NCBI GenBank assembly: GCA_026929865.2
Contig: CM049410.1
Span: 21,139,001 to 21,203,000, forward strand
Direction of reading: 5' to 3'
DNA: 64,000 nt
DNA from: Hyperoplus lanceolatus
Taxonomy: Eukaryota; Chordata; Actinopteri; Uranoscopiformes; Ammodytidae
Part shown: one piece after another, positions 5,573 through 64,000 of the stretch
How the letters are laid out: each line of letters opens with the position of its first letter
Numbering within the stretch: position 1 is the first letter of the stretch
Notes under the pieces: model-generated
What the model was told of the DNA's origin: nothing
Databases searched by the model: none
The model's input: only the letters and a program-made list of their open reading frames with translations
Program-made: the position numbers and the translations under genes

Positions 5573-6494
5573 AGCCACTACGTGTAAGTCGGCACGTTGG
5601 CGACACCTTTGAACAAATGCGGTAGTATTTTAACGACGCCAGCTGTCGTGAAGCTGTTTGCTAGCTCGTGCAGGGAGTGCAAGATTCAAATAATCAGGAA
5701 GCAATATGGTGCGTGTCCGTGTGTTGAAAGTGTGGAGGGCACCGGACTCTTTTCGGCTCTGTGAGTCTATGGGTGAGACAGCATCAACTAATGGCAGTAA
5801 GTGCTAAACACACCTGATTGCAATGAGTTGATGCATTGTCACCTCTCACGGAGCTGAACGAGTCCGTGTCCTCACACCAAGCGAATGAACGAGAGATGGC
5901 AGTTAGTTAGTATGGATCACGATGAGGTAATGTGTTTATGTTGTAAATAATGACTATTTCAGATGAATAATGGTCATCTGATGATGCTGGTGAGGCAAAG
6001 TAAACTTTGTTTTAGTAGGCTACCGCTCATTCATTTAGGAGTAAACACTGCAGTCTAGGTTCGCTGCGTGAAATTGTGTATACGTTGCTTGGCAACGCCC
6101 TCCCGCCCGCCTATCACTCTCCCTTTTAGCTTTTCTTCATTGCATTTTCTTTTTTTTCTTTGATGGTTCAGCCCCGTTATCAGTCATTATGAACAAACAA
6201 CTGTCTCAAACAAGGCTCCCGCTCCCCTTCCCTCACCTGGAGCCATAGGCTTCTCAAATCGCGTTCCTGCGCCGCACTGAAATCTGCGACCAATACGGAT
6301 ATGTGACCATAGAGCATGCACGCGTGAACCGAAAATCGGACTGGGTGTACGACCAGATCAAATGCAGTAATACAAACTATATAAAAAAGTCTTTCTTTGC
6401 ACAGATGGTCTCGTTTGCTGTTAAAGGTAATTTATGATTATGAGAGGAAACATGAGGCTGTTTAAAAGATATTTAAATGTTACTCGTTGCTGCT
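5573..6494. mobile_element. Second TTAA-flanked nonautonomous DNA transposon
   Basis: The ends are AGCCACTACGTGTAA and, on the other strand, AGCAGCAACGAGTAA, bordered by TTAA at 5569-5572 and 6495-6498. It is 922 bp and noncoding. It lies only 191 bp from the 4.2 kb element and shares its AGC/GCT terminal trinucleotide and TTAA flanks, but the interiors differ. The two look like separate families with the same insertion chemistry. Confidence 0.65.
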
Positions 6495-19560: not shown

Positions 19561-19879
19561 TGCCTTTGTCTGTGTTTTTTTATTAAGATTTAAAACACAT
19601 AACTTGCATTTCCATATTTGTATGTCTTTGTTGATTATAAGACCCTAAATGCCAGACAATCCACTGTAAACATGCATTTATCACATCACATACCAGGGCT
19701 GTATTCAGTACTTGGCATTTGTGATTAGAAATAATTGCACTCCTAAACTGAAAGCTCCCTCTTACGTCACTGTCATCCCTGAGGCAGGAAAATCACGAGG
19801 ACATTGCTCCTGGACTCGAGAAGAAAAAAAACTGTCCGACTCATCATGTGTGTTTTCTCCTTTTTGTTTCTCTCTCAAG

Positions 19880-20498
19880 GGGACTGATGCCGCGAACACT
19901 AGACAGCCAGATCACGTTAGAAAAGACTCCCAGCTACTTTGTCACCAGGGAGGCGCCCAGACGCATCGCCAGCATGTCTCACAGGACCAAGCTGATTGTT
20001 GTGGTGCGAAACCCTGTCACCAGAGCCATCTCAGACTACACACAGACTCTTTCCAAGAAACCCGACATCCCCACGTTTGAGGAGCTGGCCTTTAAGAACA
20101 GAAGCCAGGGCCTGGTCGACACTTCCTGGAACGCCATTCGTATCGGCATGTACATCCTGCACCTGGAGAACTGGCTGCAGTACTTCCGGCTGTCACAGAT
20201 GCACTTTGTGAGCGGGGAGCGGCTGATCACGGACCCGGCGGGGGAAATGGGACGCGTCCAGGACTTCCTAGGACTCAAGCGGATAATCACGGACAAGCAC
20301 TTCTACTTCAACCGGACCAAAGGCTTCCCCTGTCTGAAGAAGCCGGAGAGCAGCAGCCAGCCACGTTGCCTGGGCAAATCCAAGGGCAGGACTCACGTAC
20401 AGATGGACCGCGAGGTCCTCGAGCAGCTGCAGGAGTTTTATAGGCCGTTTAATACCAAATTCTTTGAAACTGTGGGACAGAACTTCAAGTGGGATTGA
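19880..20498 (+). CDS. hs3st2: Heparan sulfate glucosamine 3-O-sulfotransferase 2, coding exon 2
   Basis: This exon completes codon 171 and encodes residues 172-376 and the TGA stop. It holds most of the sulfotransferase domain. LEKTPSYF is at 184-191. The PAPS 3'-phosphate site is [14 protein letters not shown] (211-224, with Arg214 and Ser222). The substrate-cleft segment [10 protein letters not shown] follows at 229-238. [20 protein letters not shown] (283-302) matches HS3ST2 better than HS3ST4, which I recall has VDPAGEMAKVQ. Cys322 and Cys334 in FPCLKK and [12 protein letters not shown] form the family's conserved disulfide loop. The acceptor is TCTCTCAAG|G, preceded by a good pyrimidine tract. 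All key residues are intact, so the enzyme is predicted active. An unspliced ATG-started frame opens at 19848, but its first residues are intronic. Confidence 0.95.
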
Positions 20499-27532: not shown

Positions 27533-27682
<150 letters not shown>

Positions 27683-30332: not shown

Positions 30333-31866
30333 CACTCAACAAAAATATAAACGCAACACTTTTGTTTTTGCTCCCATTTTTCATGAGATGGACTTAAAGA
30401 TCTAAAATTCATTCCAGATACACAATATTACCATTTCTCTCAAACATTGTTCACAAATCTGTCTAAATGTGTGATAGTGAGCACTTCTGCTTTGCTGAGA
30501 TAATCCATCCCACCTCACAGGTGTGCCACATCAAGATGCTGATCTGACATCATGATTAGTGCACAGGTGTGCCTTAGACTGTCCACAATAAAAGGCCACC
30601 CTGAAATGTGCATTTTTTTGCTTTATTGGGTATCAGTATCTGGTGTGACCACCATTTGCCTCATGCAGTGCAACACATCTTCTTCGCATAGAGTTTATCA
30701 GATTGTCAATTGTGGCCTGTGGAATGTTGGTCCACTCCTCTTCAATGGCTGTGCGAAGTTGCTGGATATAGTGGGAAGTGGTGCACGCTGTCTTATACGC
30801 CGGTCAAGCACATCCCAAACATGCTCAATGGGTGACATGTCCGGTGAGTATGCTGGCCATGCAAGAACTGGGACATTTTCAGCTTCCAAGAATTGTGTAC
30901 AGATCCTTGCAACATGGGGCCGTGCATTATCTTGCTGAAACGTGAGGTGATGTTCATGGATGTATGGCACAACAATGCATTCAAAATGCCATCAATAAAA
31001 TGCACCTGTGTTCTTTGTCCATAAAAGATGCCTGCCCATACCATAACCCCACCACCACCATGGGCCACTCGATCCACAACATTGACATCAGCAAAGCGCT
31101 CACCCACACCCATTCATCCGTGAAGAGAACACCTCTCCAACGTGCCAGACTTCATCGTATGTGAGCATTTGCCCACTCAAGTCTGTTACGGCGACGAGCT
31201 GGAGTCAGGTCAAGACCCCGATGAGGACGACGAGCATGCAGTTGAGCTTCCCTGAGACGGTTTCTGACAGTTTGTGCAGAAATTGTTTGGTTATGCAAAC
31301 CAATTGTTTCAGCAGCTGTCTCAGTGGCTGGTCTCAGACGATCTTGGAGGTGAACCTGCTGGATGTGGAGGTCCTGGGCTGGTGGGGTTACACGTGGTCT
31401 ACGGTTGTGAGGCCAGTTGGATGTACTGCCATATTCTCTGAAACGCCTTTGGAGACGGCTTATGGTGGAGAAATAAACATTCAATGCACGAGCAACAGAT
31501 CTGGTTGACATTCCTGCTGTCAGCATGCCAATTGCACGCTCCCTCAATGCTTGTGGCATCTGTGGCATTTTGCTGTGAGACAAAACTGCACATTTCAGAG
31601 TGGCCTTTTATTGTGGACAGTCTAAGGCACAGCTGTGCACTAATCATGATGTCAGATCAGCATCTTGATGTGGCACAGCTGTGAGGTGGGATGGATTATC
31701 TCAGCAAAGCAGAGGTGCTCACTATCACACATTTAGACAGATTTGTGAACAATGTTTGAGAAAAATGGTAATATTGTGTATCTGGAATGAATTTTAGATC
31801 TTTAAGTCCATCTCATGAAAAATGGGAGCAAAAACAAAAGTGTTGCGTTTATATTTTTGTTGAGTG
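30333..31866 (-). mobile_element. Complete Tc1-like element with ~280 bp inverted repeats
   Basis: The element starts CACTCAACAAAAATATAAAC and ends with the reverse complement, flanked by TA at 30331-30332 and 31867-31868, as expected for Tc1/mariner insertion. The inverted repeats are long, about 30333-30614 and 31586-31866, and highly similar. The central region encodes a transposase on the - strand that is now broken (next entry). Intact ends and TA duplications suggest a fairly young insertion. It could still be moved if a matching transposase is supplied elsewhere in the genome. Confidence 0.92.
30698..31583 (-). pseudogene. Tc1-like DD34E transposase, broken by a stop and two deletions
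   Basis: The frame starts at 31583 (MSHSKMPQMP) and continues with a helix-turn-helix segment RERAIGMLTAGMSTRSVARA, then a second DNA-binding domain. After WANAHIR a TGA replaces the family's Trp at about 31152. Reading through gives LARWRGVLFTDE with the first catalytic Asp at 31116-31118. A small deletion then removes the SRFSLYRADGRQ-type segment and shifts the frame. The next part (VGERFADVNVVDRVAHGGGG) runs to ILNA, where a second deletion of about 30 bases shifts frame again. The last part has FQQDNARPH (second Asp near 30930) and SPDMSPIEHVWD (Glu near 30825). The 34-residue gap between them is the Tc1 DD34E signature. It is not functional as it stands. Confidence 0.88.
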
Positions 31867-35147: not shown

Positions 35148-35516
35148 AGAGGAACGTCACTCTAGAAATTAGATGGACGGACGCGAGAGTTGATCACGCG
35201 ATAGCTTGAGGTGGCTTTTAAGCCACGGGTAGATCAATTGCCCATAGCGGTAACACTTTACAATAAGGGTACATTAATTAATGGTTAGTTAATGCTTAAT
35301 AAGGTTTAACTTACCATTAGTTAACTGTTAACTAATGTGTCTAAAAAGCATTTACTAATTGTATTAATGTTAACTAAGGTATTAATTACTACATTATGTA
35401 CTGTTTTATAAATATCCTATATCAACCTTAGTTAACCCATTATTTAAGCTTGAACTAACAGTTGATTAATATAATAATAAGCATTAATTAACTGTTAACA
35501 AATGTCATTTTTGTAA

Positions 35517-35900
35517 CATTACTTAAGCATAATTAACCATGTATTAATGCTCTTTGTGACCCTTATTGTAAAGTGGGAACCATTTATCCATTAAGTAACA
35601 CTTAATAAATGCACACCAGTGCTGAATAGGCATTACTTAAGTGTAATTAACCATTTACTAATGGACTTTGTGACCCTTATTGTAAAGTGAGAACCATTTC
35701 TCATGAATTAACACCTAATAAAGGCATACTAGTGCTGATTAAGCATCACTTAAGCATAATTAACCATTTCTTAATGTTATTTGTGACCCTTATTGTAAAG
35801 TGGGAACCATTCATCACTTGCTACACTTAATAAATGCAAAATAGTGCTGAATAAGGATTACCTAAGTACAATCTCCATCAATCAACATTGCTCTTTGTGA
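35517..35900 (+). repeat. Tandem ~113 bp subrepeats in the left arm
   Basis: Units begin at about 35517, 35631, 35744 and 35856, with CATTACTTAAG-like starts. The first three each contain CCCTTATTGTAAAGTG (35560, 35674 and 35787), which is the reverse complement of the element's own terminal sequence. The fourth unit is decayed. The right arm carries the same array inverted at about 38880-39280, plus an extra ~30 bp partial duplication at 39131-39160. Confidence 0.85.
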
Positions 35901-37225
35901 CCTGTGTACATTCTCTATAATAACAATATTAAACATACTAAAATATTTCCAACTGGAAATCAATTCATGACAACAATCTGTTATCAACACAATTCAGTCA
36001 GAATTTAAAAATTAGAGAATTTTATTTAATTTAGAATCTTTAGTTTTATTTGGAAACACGGCTCTCACATTTGACATGAATACCGTCAAAGAACTCCAAA
36101 ATAGTTTCTTCAACAAATTATATCCAGTTTAATGATTTTCTCTGAAAGTAACAAACAGGAGGAAATGGATTACTAACAGCAATGGTGAAACACACTGACT
36201 CAGCAGTTAGGTTTAACAGGTAAATATGTATTTTCTACTCTCTTCCTTGAAGTGTATATCATTGTTGCAACATAAACAAAAATAAAATACACAAAGAACA
36301 TAACAGTTCCATTTTAATTAAGGACTAAAGATAAAACAAAATAATGATCATTCTCTTGTGACTAAACACTAGTTTAACCTGGCCCTATCATTGTTATTTG
36401 AATGAGCACATATGTATTTAATTTAACCTTTATTTATACTAGAAAGATCAGTTGAGCGGTGACCCTCATTTACAATCTCTCGCTCTCTTTAGATCCAGTT
36501 CTTGGGTTTGCTGGCCACTCCAGGCCTAGGTGCTCCTCTCCAAATGAAGCAGTTGGGCTGGAATCCAACAATCTTGTCTAATCACCAAGTTGATGTACAT
36601 GGAAAAAAATTAAAATAATCAGTTAACAGTTCAGATGCATTTTTGTTTCCTTTATCTAAATCATTATAGCATAGCATTACGGTTCCACATTATGTATTAT
36701 TATTATAACATAATGCATTGCATTGCTGAAACTGAAATATCTATGGTACCTTAATCAAATAAAATTCTCACTGAACCTTTAACAAGTTGACACTATTTTT
36801 TAATTAAAAAAACATGTAATCTCTATGACGATTCTACACAACACATGCTCAGTTTAAGCCCATTTTAGCCTGGAATAGCAACGTGCACTTTGAATATGGA
36901 AAATGCTTACATGTGTTCACATATGGTTTGGTGTCTACAAAGCTACAATTACTGCTAAAAGTTACCTGTGAAGCTAGCCAGCACAAGCCACATGCTAACG
37001 GTGCTATGCTAGCGGGAGGCTGCATCACTAATATATTTCACATTATTCATTTCTTACATACACACACACAACTATATCATCTCACTAATACCTTAGTTAA
37101 CTCACCAATAATTTTGTTGGGCTAATGGCAGCATACTGTAATTGTAACCACCACGGGTCTTTTGTGAGAAAAAAGCACATAGCTGCTGGCCTGTTGCTTC
37201 ACTGTCCAGACACACATCCTCTTTC

Positions 37226-37464
37226 TTGCTGGCTGATCGCTGGGCGAGTTCAAGTGCTTGAAAAACGTGGGTTATCCTAATGTCAATAAGGTTTGTAAAG
37301 AAATATTTTTCTTAAGTAAAGTCTCCAAACATATTTTCACCTTCCCAAAGTTGAAAATACATTGCATACATACATGCATTCCCTCTACAGCCATTGTTGA
37401 TTATCAATAGCCTATTATTGATCATATAAATCACCTATAGATCTCGTTTTTTACTGGATCCTGG
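37226..37464. other. Spacer of the fold-back element
   Basis: This is the non-palindromic centre, where left and right arms stop matching. It is AT-rich, with ACATACATACATGCATTC near 37365 and no protein-like frame. It would be the loop of a very large hairpin. Confidence 0.6.
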
Positions 37465-39547
37465 CCACTGGGAGGATAGAAAGATGGATGTGTGCCTGGA
37501 CAGTAGCAGCAGCTGAGCTACGTGCTTAAAGCCAGTTTGACCTGACCGACCCATTATTCTCATACAAAAGACCTGTGGTGGTTACAGTTATGCTGCCATT
37601 AGCCAAATGAAATTATTGGTGAGTTAATTAAAGTGTTAGTGAGATGATATAGTTGTGTGTGTGTAAGAATACTTTGAAATATATTAGCGACACAGCCTCC
37701 CGCTAGCATAGCAACGTTAGCATTAGCGCGCTGCTATATGAGCAGCGTTAGCATGAGGCTTGTGCTGGCTAGCTTCACAGGTAACTTTTAGCAGTAATTG
37801 TAGTGGGGGCTAAATAAAGTGTGTGTTCATGGACACCAAACCGTATGTGAATAAATGTTAGCATTATTCCATTATGCAAAGTGCATGTTGCTATTTCTTG
37901 CTAAAATGAGCTAAAGCTGAGCATGTGTTGTGTAGAATGGTCATAGAGATTACATGTTTTTTGGATGAAAAAATAGTGTCAACTTGTTAAAGGTTCAGTG
38001 AGAATTTTATTTGATTAAGGTACCAAAGATATTTCAGTTAAGCAATGCAATGCATTATGTTATAATAATAATATATAATGTGGAACCGTAATGCTATGCT
38101 ATAATGATTTAGATAAAGGAAACAAAAATGCATCTGAACTGTTAACTGATTATTTTAATTTTTTCCATGTACATCAACTTGGTGATTAGACAAGATTCTT
38201 GGATTCCAGCCCAACTGCTTCATTTGGAGAGGAGCACCCAGGCCTGGAGTGGCCAGCAAACCCAAGAACTGGAACTAAAGAGAGCGAGAGATTATAAATG
38301 AGGGTCACCCCTCAACTGATCTTTCGAGTATAAATAAAGGTTAAATTAAATACATATGTGCTCATTCAAATAACAATGATAGGGCCAGGTTAAACTAGTG
38401 TTTAGTCACAAGAGAATGATCATTATTTTGTTTTATCTTTAGTCCATAATTAAAAATGGAACTGTTATGTTCTTTGTGTATTTTATTTTTGTTTATGTTG
38501 CAACAATGATATACACTTCAAGGAAGAGAGTAGAAAATACATATTTACCTGTTAAACCTAACTGCTGAGTCAGTGTGTTTCACCATTACTGTTAGTAATC
38601 CATTTCCTCCTGTTTGTTACTTTCAGAGAAAATCATTAAACTGGATATAATTTGTTGAAGAAACTATTTTGGAGTTCTTTGACGGTATTCATGTCAAATG
38701 TGAGAGCCGTGTTTCCAAATAAAACTAAAGATTCTAAATTAAATTAAATTCTCTCTTTTTTAAATTCTGACTGAATTGTGTTGATAACAGATTGTTGTCA
38801 TGAATTGATTTCCAGTTGGAAATATTTTAGTATGTTTAATATTGTTATTATAGAGAATGTACACGGGTCACAAAGAGCAATGTTGATTGATGGAGATTGT
38901 ACTTAGGTAATCCTTATTCAGCACTATTTTGCATTTATTAAGTGTAACAAGTGATGAATGGTTCCCACTTTACAATAAGGGTCAAAACTACATTAAGAAA
39001 TGGTTAATTATGCTTAAGTGATGCTTAATCAGCACTAGTATGCCTTTAATAGGTGTTAACTCATGAGAAATGGTTCTCACTTTACAATAAGGGTCACAAA
39101 GTCCATTAATAAATTGTTAATTAAACTAAAGTAATGCCTATTATGGTTAATTATGCTTCAGTAACGCCTATTCAGCACTGGTGTGCATTCATTAAGTGTT
39201 ACTTAATGGATAAATGGTTCCTACTTTACAATAAGGGTCACAAAGAGCATTAATAAATAGTTAATTATGCTTAAGTAATGTTGCAAAAATGACAATTGTT
39301 AACAGTTAATTAATGCTTATTATTATATTAATCAACTGTTGGTTCATGCTTAATTAATGGGTTAACTAAGGTTAATATAGGATATTTATAAACATTACAT
39401 AATGTAGTAATTAATACCTTAGTTAACATGAATAACATCAGTAAATGCTTACTAGACACATTAGTTAACAGTTAACTAATGGTTAGTTAAACCTTATTAA
39501 GCATTAACTAACCATTAATTAATGTACCCTTATTGTAAAGTGTTACC

Positions 39548-39960
39548 CTAATGGCAATGTGGACAACTTCAAAAAGTTGAATATTCTACCTTTAATCAGT
39601 AGGGGAAGTAGCATGCAAAGCATGTATGTAACCTACTGCTTCAATCAAACACATAAGAATTATAAAGGATGATGCGGGGAGACTTTGGTTCTGTCTTCAC
39701 GCAATCTTAACTTTAAAATTACAGAAACTCAACACTCATGTATTCATTAAGAATACTTGAGGGGGAAATCACGAGTGTCAGTGTGTTTGTGTGTGTGTGT
39801 GATGTGCGTAGTTAGAAATGAGAAGGAGAGAAAACAAAAGACAGTAGCTGCAGCTCCAGCGCGTAGTGAACTGTTTCCTCCAATCACACAGTGACTGCAA
39901 ATGCGCATTTATGTACACTGAGTTGAATTGATAAAGAGGAAAGAATTCACCGGCTATAAG
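39548..39960. other. Flank of the fold-back element
   Basis: Unique sequence with a short GT-rich stretch at about 39780-39810. No gene is supported. Confidence 0.6.
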
Positions 39961-62254: not shown

Positions 62255-63753
62255 TCATTGAGGCCTCTGTGTTGTACGTGCAGGAGATTGCATGCTAGAC
62301 GACAACTTTCGGGAAGACGCCATCCTTTCGAGAGGCTTCTTCCCGTTTGCGGGAGACTTGAGACTTACTTCAGACATGGAAGACTTGGATTTGCCAACGT
62401 TCAGAAGGGTGCGACTGAGAGAGCTGGGGGGCTTAGAAGACGTTTTTGTCTCTGACTTTTTCCCTCCTCCTTGAGTCTCTGCAGACGACTGTGAAGACTC
62501 GGCGTCCGCTGTCTTGCCATTGTCGCTACATACGTCCTTGGCTTGTCCATTCTGCTTGCCTGTCCTCTCTGAGGGCTTTTTGGCAAGCATGGAGCTTTTT
62601 CCCAAATCAGCCGACCGGCGGCTTTCCCTTTGTCGGAGGGCGCTCTTGAAGAAAGACAAGCCTTTCTCCTCTGGTTTGCTGCTGCGCTGCAGTTCTCTGG
62701 TGGAGACACTGGGGGAGCGCAGGCTAGTGACTGAAGAGCTGCTGCTGGAGCTCCTCACTGATCTCCTCTCAACGCGGTTGTTGTCCCCACTCTTAGAGAG
62801 TGAAGAGCGGGCTAGTGAGCTGCCTCCTCTGATGTGGTCCACCAGGGGGCTAGTGTGCATAGAATCTCTGCTGAAGCTCCTCTCTACCCGCCTTCTCTGG
62901 CTACTAATGGTGCTTTTATCTGCAACACTGGAGTTCTTTTGTGACGTGGGCGAGGGAGAAGCAGAGGACTGGGGATTAGATCGGAGACATGGCCTATGTT
63001 GTGGCGTTGCCTCCAGGGGTTTAGCTGCCTCCTTTGTTGTTTTGGAGGGAGTTCCACTGGGCGTAGAGGTGCTCTTCTTGGAGGTCACACTCTTTTCTTT
63101 AGTACTGCTCATCTTTTTGCCTTTCACCGGCGTGCTGGAAGGCGTCTCGGACGCAGAGGTCTTCTGCGTTGAGCACAAGCGTTTCTTGGAGATTTTCTCT
63201 TGCGCCGCTTTGCTGGAACTCTTTGCCGAGCCCGAGCTTTCCGCCTTGGAGCCAAATCCTCCGATACTGCTCTTACGTTTCTGTTCTTTGGAGGGAGTAG
63301 CTTGTGCCGGTAGAACGTTTTGGTCTATGGCTGTGATCTGGTTGTTGTTTTCACTTGGGTCACTTCTGGTGCTCCTCTTGTCCACCGGAGTGGGAGCCCT
63401 GCAGTACATCATGTCTAGGAACCTTTTGTTGTTGTCCTGCTCACTGAAGTTGCTCTCCATCATGGACAGGGGAGACCTGCTGCCAAAGTAGCGTTCATGT
63501 CTGCTGTAGCTGCCAAAACAGGACGTGGAAACTTTGTCATCGCCGGCTTCTCCTATCCGCTCCAGAGGAGGAGAGCAGCGGGAGTCCAGGGAGAAACGTG
63601 AGGGAGAGTTGGACCTCATGTGGAGCTTGGCAGAGAGAGACCAGGACGGCTTTATCCCACTGTCACTGAGAGCTAGAGGGCTGGCTACGGAAGACCTGGA
63701 GGACAGGCTCTGACGCTGGATGCTCCGAACAAATGGGCGGACAGAGAATCCTC
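62255..63753 (-). CDS. usp31: Ubiquitin-specific protease 31, last coding exon
   Basis: This exon encodes the C-terminal 498 residues of USP31, a cysteine deubiquitinase that in human cells is linked to NF-kB signalling. The catalytic USP domain lies upstream, outside the window. The exon starts after the - strand acceptor TTTTTTTGTTAACAG; its first two bases finish a split codon. The peptide is strongly rich in Ser, Lys, Arg and Pro and is probably disordered. Segments I recognise from vertebrate USP31 are SIQRQSLSSRSSV (residues 10-22 of the exon peptide), WSLSAKLHMRSNSPSRFS (37-54), EEKGLSFFKSALRQ (361-374) and RKLSSSMQ (481-488) close to the end. Between them conservation is low. The stop is TGA at 62255-62257. 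A TTG codon just upstream could mislead a start caller, but it lies in the intron. Human USP31 is about 1350 residues, so about a third of the protein is here. Confidence 0.93.
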
Positions 63754-64000
63754 CTGTTAACAAAAAAATGTTTTATGAAATAAATTGAACTTTCGTTAAA
63801 CACAATTAACTGGACTTAAGTGCTGTTGGAAACCCTGAACTAAAAAGGTGAAATAAGCGATTCTAGAGAAAGCTTGTTGTCAAAATTCATTTTTAACAAG
63901 CTTTCTCCAGAATCTCTGACCCCACCTTTAATTGAAATTACACAAACAAAAATGTCAGTGCTAATAAATACTTGCAATGCACCAAAAGCAAAGCGGTCAT
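63754..64000 (-). other. usp31: usp31 last intron (partial)
   Basis: The intron begins above the acceptor AG at 63754-63755 and continues beyond the window. It holds a miniature element at 63846-63927. Confidence 0.85.
63846..63927. mobile_element. Short hairpin copy of the GGTGGAGTCAGCGATTCT element
   Basis: The element is reduced to its two ends. GCGATTCTAGAGAAAGCTTG pairs with CAAGCTTTCTCCAGAATCTC. The right border is CCT followed by TTAA (63928-63931); the left border is TAAA, a decayed TTAA. The whole 82 bp can fold on itself. Confidence 0.75.

Follow-up and report, generated by a model that had tools for sequence, protein, structure and literature searches.

Among described foldback elements, two from Drosophila come closest in build to the element reported here. 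Tetris of Drosophila virilis, according to the part of its description available to us (PMC4079207), carries no transposase and has arms of up to 1,735 bp around a non-coding middle, each arm comprising an outer flanking domain, tandem repeats of ~220 bp and an inner domain; homogenisation of the repeats is suggested as possible, and its ends are shared with DAIBAM, a miniature inverted-repeat transposable element (MITE) seen as a deletion derivative. Galileo, a foldback-like element of the P superfamily, has arms of up to ~1.26 kb with internal tandem repeats, and copies made of two terminal inverted repeats outnumber nearly complete ones in the accessible portions of its reports (PMC3573991, PMC3688188, PMC4168063). 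Here we describe a 4,299-bp palindrome at positions 35249 to 39547 of a 64,000-nucleotide stretch of the Hyperoplus lanceolatus genome (GenBank assembly GCA_026929865.2, contig CM049410.1, positions 21,139,001 to 21,203,000, forward strand). We call this whole stretch the window, and coordinates refer to it unless a locus is named. The palindrome is very probably a complete copy of a non-autonomous foldback DNA transposon, of which there are ~150 copies by spacer count; we draw this conclusion because the family has defined ends, an 8-bp target-site duplication and that copy number, because 20 of the 21 copies we examined retain both arms at least in part, and because there is an empty site and no recognised gene.

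As a kind, the element is known: it is a foldback non-autonomous transposon whose build is closest to that of Tetris and Galileo, and it is large in size and copy number. The likeness to Tetris is one of build, and the ~150 copies with arms of 1.9-2.0 kb, in an animal that has a vertebrate-like gene beside the element, compare with three structurally complete copies in the available account of Tetris (PMC4079207). Galileo differs in its 7-bp duplication, its known THAP-type transposase and its shorter arms, as far as its reports are accessible (PMC3573991, PMC3688188, PMC4168063). In 5.39 million open papers, one query with the tip sequences returned a single occurrence without evident link to a transposon and the other returned none, and no description of this element was found in the titles and abstract beginnings among the matches listed for fish and foldback elements. 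The family may already be catalogued in repeat libraries.

Architecture of the palindrome

The outer coordinates proposed by an earlier, sequence-only reading of the window coincide exactly with the ends of the element, which runs from GGTAACACTTTACAATAAGGG to CCCTTATTGTAAAGTGTTACC and has no assigned strand. The terminal inverted repeat tip GGTAACACTTTACAATAAGGG occupies 35249..35269 on the plus strand, and its match lies at 39527..39547 on the minus strand. The left arm (arm A, 35249..37173, plus strand) is followed by a spacer at 37174..37553, without strand, and by the right arm (arm B, 37554..39547, minus strand), an inverted copy of the left. Self-alignment of the window gave an inverted repeat of 35237-37173 with 37554-39558 at 90.8% identity over 2,024 columns including gaps, and the arms are 94.9% identical at gap-free positions. 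The palindrome had been described as near-perfect, which is accurate for part of it only. Identity is highest, at 99%, over 538 nt of mid-arm (35778-36315); segments outside or adjoining it are 92-98% identical, and near the centre short arm segments of 78-97% are broken by several indels, with the minimum of 78% at 36902-36950 among ungapped mirror segments. The sequence-only reading gave a spacer of ~240 bp. Strong homology stops at 37173 and 37554, leaving 380 nt, and patchier similarity continues ~60-80 nt further inward on each side, which comes close to 240. The palindrome is real, and its length together with the genome-wide copies that have the same ends excludes chance.

Both arms contain internal tandem repeats. 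Roughly three 113-bp units lie in the left arm at 35517..35866 (plus strand) and hold the tip motif in reverse orientation; the mirror repeats in the right arm, at 38896..39280 (minus strand), have a spacing of 111-144. Within these repeats each arm has three further exact copies of the 15-nt tip core, oriented opposite to the tip: one at 35559..35573 (minus strand) and others starting at 35673 and 35786 (minus) and at 38968, 39080 and 39224 (plus). The motif is absent from the rest of the window at up to 2 substitutions. In Galileo, extra transposase-binding sites inside the repeats have been shown in vitro, according to the accessible part of that study (PMC3688188), and by analogy with them the internal tip motifs are candidate transposase-binding sites.

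No transposase was recognised in the element, as the sequence-only reading had stated. The longest stop-to-stop frame has 98 aa, and this frame, the only one scanned against Pfam, gave one sub-threshold match (E 0.1). Most of the 4,299 bp consists of inverted terminal repeats, and their internal tandem repeats are a further foldback feature. MITEs are usually under 600 bp in the available part of one account (PMC3573991); the element described here, at 4.3 kb, is far outside that length.

A dispersed family with common ends

The 807 Mb assembly, comprising 527 contigs, holds many copies with the same ends. A 301-base spacer query returned 237 candidates, of which the best 40 were scored, all at 98-100% identity. 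A 28-mer from the spacer (37412-37439) has 154 genome matches at up to 2 mismatches and a 28-mer from the arm has 277, with 0 for the controls of each; the ratio of arm to spacer is 1.8, where 2 is expected if the palindromes are intact. The tip GGTAACACTTTACAATAAGGG itself has 843 exact matches (420 forward, 423 reverse; control 0), and a tip variant ending in GGT has 1,483 (controls 0). Among the first 100 listed places of the GGG tip, on contig C1 and most of contig C2, 25 exact pairs stand less than 10 kb apart, spanning 305 bp to 9.8 kb, and eight of them span 4.1-4.4 kb.

To the window copy we added the first 20 among 39 further scored loci, on 12 contigs, and refer to these copies by locus label (L009 and so on). 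Both arms are kept at least in part by 20 of the 21 copies. Fourteen are collinear with the window copy at ~4.2-4.35 kb, with exceptions in L022, where 53 terminal bases are missing at one end, and in L027, where one end has 240 additional bases. Among the others, L013 is rearranged, L016 is shortened by a 0.4 kb deletion, L010 is without the outer part of one arm, and L009, L023 and L025 carry insertions. The sequence-only reading had allowed that other copies might be non-palindromic and encode a transposase. The opposite was seen: both arms persist at least in part in nearly all, and no transposase was found between the tips.

As a separate observation, the terminal 240-bp stretch of L027 is repeated at one end (5797-6035 of that locus), a possible step in arm lengthening.

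Target-site duplications, an empty site and small elements

Dispersed copies share an 8-bp target-site duplication as well as their ends. Fifteen palindromic copies have both ends, and the duplication is perfect in five of them, matches at seven of eight bases in one, at six in three, at five in two, at four in two and at three in one; the remaining copy, L012, has two of eight in register, and when the register is shifted it shows a 7-bp duplication that is perfect. Thirty-five shifted controls per copy gave means of 1.1-4.5 of 8, single controls reaching 3-6. The window copy, with CCCATAGC on its left (35241..35248, plus strand) and CTAATGGC on its right (39548..39555, plus strand), matches at five of eight, and its best shifted control also reaches 5. 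Flanks of two-ended copies are largely different, a few shared repeats apart; in that comparison the right flank of L027 is element sequence, its true end lying at 6035. One clear empty site was found as well: the joined flanks of L027 align to an element-free repeat beside L010, one base in the A run of the site excepted. Those of L013 align to a repeat beside L011, but here a gap of 13 bases adjoins the site.

Four short tip pairs of 305-351 bp were read (L066-L069). They have the same tip, GGTAACACTTTACAATAAGGG, leave no room for a transposase, and in two of the four have 7/8 duplications. In L067 (351 bp, 7/8 duplication), 227 nt of one end are joined to 124 nt of the other at ~93% identity; judged by its sequence, L067 is an internal-deletion derivative of the palindrome. 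The other three have in common with the palindrome only end pieces of ~45-125 bp at 75-94% and are not clearly derived from it.

Several points weigh against the transposon reading. The in-register match is at most 6/8 in nine of the 15 two-ended copies (L012 included), and in the window copy, L012, L014, L016 and L018 it does not rise above the copy's own best shifted control. The sampled copies are the best spacer matches and so are biased towards young, intact ones; even among them, L026 retains a single arm. Finally, no autonomous partner was found in the comparisons described below.

Two other origins of the palindrome were weighed. Faulty long reads are known to yield long palindromes, and a falsely mirrored read, for example from a missed hairpin adapter, would produce a structure of this kind in an assembly. 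The element is, however, present at twenty other loci on 12 contigs, the two-ended copies largely differ in their flanks and several have 8-bp duplications, and arm differences are common to several copies, which a mirrored read would not yield; we regard an assembly or sequencing artefact as extremely unlikely. An inverted duplication that arose by chance, or a segmental duplication of immobile DNA, would also carry both arms along, as 20 of 21 copies do, but it leaves the sharp common ends, the 8-bp duplications, the empty site and the flanks, unrelated but for a few shared repeats, without account, and we hold it to be highly improbable. The transposon reading, with which the fold-back element proposed by the sequence-only reading agrees, is supported by same-ended copies throughout the genome, by their ends and duplications, and by the dominance of the inverted arms.

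Search for a transposase

We propose that a transposase would be supplied in trans by a relative with the same tip, GGTAACACTTTACAATAAGG; binding both the tip and the three additional copies of its motif within each arm, it would excise the entire 4.3 kb palindrome and insert it at another site. As a refinement compatible with the transposon reading, we somewhat favour a known superfamily with ~8-bp duplications (hAT, P, Merlin, Zisupton/KDZ or Mutator-like) as the source of this activity. Merlin, KDZ and Mutator-like types make ~8-bp duplications. An 8-bp duplication fits P and hAT in the available part of one account (PMC3706591), and here it is complete (8/8) in five of 15 copies. Galileo, of the P superfamily, likewise has long, internally repetitive arms in the accessible parts of its reports (PMC3573991, PMC3688188).

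All five transposase families have profile matches in the genome: 19 for P-type (PF21787), 18 for KDZ (PF18758), 11 for Merlin (PF12762) and 8 for MULE (PF10551), and for hAT (PF05699) the best 150 of 722 candidates were scored, by coordinates only. Against the proposal, no tip pair surrounds the transposase at any of the 19 P-type or 18 KDZ-type loci, read ~1.5 kb to each side. Tips and profile matches were also compared on C1 and C2, using the first 100 places per tip pattern, lists that reach 36.1 and 24.6 Mb of C2. The five families have 26 matches there, and all are more than 28 kb away from any of the 200 tips listed; they include 19 hAT matches, none near a listed tip, and one match each of Merlin and Mutator-like type, compared by coordinates. 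hAT elements have CAG/TAG-type termini, and the element ends differently, in GGTAACAC. The tip also differs from the end of zebrafish Pdre2, CATACCTGTCAAC, as given in the available part of its report (PMC10983969).

Several candidate partners were examined and rejected. At L033, the tip-like ends belong to another element, ~256 bp long, that lies next to the transposase, and L041, L044 and L048 have weak tip matches and no tip pair around the transposase gene. The 6.1 kb between tips at C1:19274743-19280875 was taken as an interrupted palindrome copy instead of an autonomous element; one of the two pieces read starts with 217 arm bases (91-92%) and is then unrelated, and the other has an 18-base match only. 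A 4.3 kb element at C1:792833-797136 (L072, L076, L077) has GGTAACACTTTACAATAAGGT tips and a 7/8 duplication, AAAAATTT/AAAAATGT. It contains an 80-aa frame without Pfam match that has 81 genome matches, five of them, including itself, at 99-100%. We rejected it as an autonomous partner: four other loci with the frame match its start only from base 27-38 inward and do not share the tip. The element looks like a capture of repeated coding sequence. Capture of sequence by elements with terminal inverted repeats is treated in PMC8277862. At E 1e-3 the palindrome resembles none of the middle pieces read from four GGT-tip pairs (L072-L075), and one L072 frame and two L073 frames have no Pfam match at E 1.

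History of the arms

Instability would be expected of a 4 kb palindrome. The arms of the 15 copies that have both were aligned, L027 being cut at 5796 although its true end is 6035, which affects the first columns only. Columns 1600-2099, the inner arm, separate the A arms from the B arms without exception in 15 of 15 copies. Because this split is present in every aligned copy, the palindrome is evidently older than the amplification burst and was copied as a unit. The window copy conforms to this history: of its 99 single-base arm differences, 78 are common to at least half of nine other copies of its subfamily (15/26 in the outer, 8/16 in the middle and 55/57 in the inner zone), and its arm structure is therefore mostly inherited.

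The mid-arm (columns 600-1600) behaves differently from the inner arm. Own-arm identity is 0.985 there, and in 200-column blocks it equals or exceeds the identity between copies of arm A and of arm B (0.968-0.985). The copies fall into two subfamilies. In subfamily II (L015, L018, L021, L027 and L028) the arms tend to group by copy, with sister support of 98 for L021, 93 for L027, 83 for L028 and 68 for L015, while L018 does not form a clean pair. Subfamily I consists of the other ten copies including that of the window; there the A arms make one group and the B arms another, and the two branch in parallel. Permutations were run within subfamilies, a permutation over all 15 copies having overstated conversion because of the two subfamilies. 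Mid-arm own-arm identity was in excess in both, at 0.9809 vs 0.9789 in subfamily I (1 of 2,000 permutations as high) and 0.9933 vs 0.9881 in subfamily II (1 of 120, the observed order itself).

Variants seen exactly twice point the same way. Of 20 in the mid-arm, ten are in both arms of one copy, nine in the same arm of two copies and one in different arms of two copies; the same three classes count 1, 9 and 2 in the outer zone and 1, 5 and 0 in the inner zone to column 2000. Independent mutation would make the class with different arms of two copies ~14 times as large as that with both arms of one copy. We read this pattern as gene conversion between arms, strongest mid-arm and repeated in some lineages. 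The zone that appears homogenised in the family maps approximately to 35813..36794 (plus strand) and, in mirror, to 37975..38955 (minus strand). The sequence-only reading had offered recent origin or ongoing arm conversion as the cause of arm identity; conversion is seen in the family, but a recent singular origin disagrees with the A/B split of all 15 copies and with the 78 shared differences.

The conversion reading has evidence on its other side. There is no own-copy excess in the outer 600 columns (359 of 2,000 and 98 of 120 permutations as high in subfamilies I and II), and in the inner columns none in subfamily I and a weak one in subfamily II (4/120); because of the latter the conversion zone is not sharply limited. 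Eight of the ten both-arm variants belong to three subfamily II copies (L021, L027, L028), the remaining two being one in L022 and one in the window copy. The signal rests on 15 copies, and variants that seem private may be common to unsampled ones. Re-creation of one arm off the other during transposition or gap repair, by fold-back synthesis, would also yield variants shared by the two arms of one copy. If, however, a whole arm were resynthesised from a central hairpin, the inner A/B differences found in each of the 15 copies would be lost, and in the outer 600 columns there is no own-copy excess; patchy repair would not erase these differences, and we consider fold-back synthesis unlikely as the source of arm likeness, though less so than the two origins dismissed above. 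By reasoning, cross-polishing in the assembly is an unlikely cause, because short reads would not favour the other arm of the same copy over ~270 other arms.

The palindrome formed before the burst and multiplied ready-made. Under gene conversion, later exchange between the arms of one copy would even out the mid-arm; the centre, where the arms differ by indels, would be evened much less or not at all.

A signature beside the tips

The two target-site copies of one insertion often disagree, and their mismatches cluster at mirrored positions. The pattern was noted in the flanks of the window copy, of L009-L028 and of L066. Nineteen elements, palindromes and small ones together, have two ends; in the 16 of them with at least four of eight target bases matching, 26 mismatches fall at positions 1-3 (3, 5 and 5), at 6-7 (5 and 6) and at position 5 (2), and none at 4 or 8. 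Read inward to the tip, CC occurs at -8/-7 or -7/-6 in 14 of 43 ends, compared with 2.1 on average and 6 at most over 14 more distant offsets; the 43 leave aside the two ends of C1:792833, whose flanks are short. Palindromic copies alone have it at 13 of 35 ends. The CC sits 5-6 bp outside the terminal GG, and none of the 14 CC ends belongs to a copy with a perfect duplication. At five ends TTACC, an inverted copy of the tip, stands 5-6 bases ahead of GGTAA in the tip itself. For L027, the empty relative agrees with the left target copy, AAAAAAAC, and the right one has AAAAAGGC. The mismatch pattern was noticed before it was tested, and its p-values are descriptive.

Target preference alone does not account for the CC signature, because the two copies of one duplication differ, and neither does random decay. 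Our best guess is that the terminal GG of the tip is copied, or a hairpin stem corrected, during fill-in of the 8-nt gap. In its specific form the proposal is tentative, and we would put it at somewhat below even: insertion would edit the target duplication, the nascent strand copying the terminal 5'-GG by way of a fold-back between a TTA-like flank and GGTAA and leaving in-register CC at the first-filled positions of one or both copies. Some observations sit poorly with copying from the tip. Some ends have CCC, beyond what two Gs explain; the flanks of L011 and L027 show little complementarity to the tip; three of the 14 CC ends (L016 right, L022 left, L025 right) are without a good partner for comparison; and the mismatches of L017, L067 and L068 do not fit. 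In the open literature on templated edits of target duplications, nothing describing such a signature was found in titles and abstract beginnings among the matches listed, and the signature may be new.

Surroundings in the window

Two plus-strand exons of a heparan sulfate glucosamine 3-O-sulfotransferase 3-like gene lie ~20 kb apart at 252-779 and 19752-20498, and the palindrome stands ~15 kb downstream of them. Between them and the palindrome are a GATA tetranucleotide array of 37.5 copies with 100% matches (27533-27682) and a Tc1/mariner-type transposase fragment (PF01498) at 31152-31607 on the minus strand. Long open frames overlap on both strands at 62255-63772 (minus) and 62475-63491 (plus); the minus-strand frame, serine-rich and of 505 aa, has no Pfam match at E 0.01. 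Rfam gave no match in the window.

Significance

A 4 kb palindrome that has multiplied as a unit to ~150 copies provides a natural replicate series in which arm conversion can be mapped along a palindrome, and here conversion is chiefly mid-arm, with no sign of it in the outer 600 columns. If the proposed editing of target duplications is true, the two copies of a duplication diverge by rule, not by age, and a mismatched duplication would be no sign of an old insertion. Confirmed in more copies, the junction signature would expose a gap-repair step at transposon insertions and would warn against dating insertions by their imperfect duplications.

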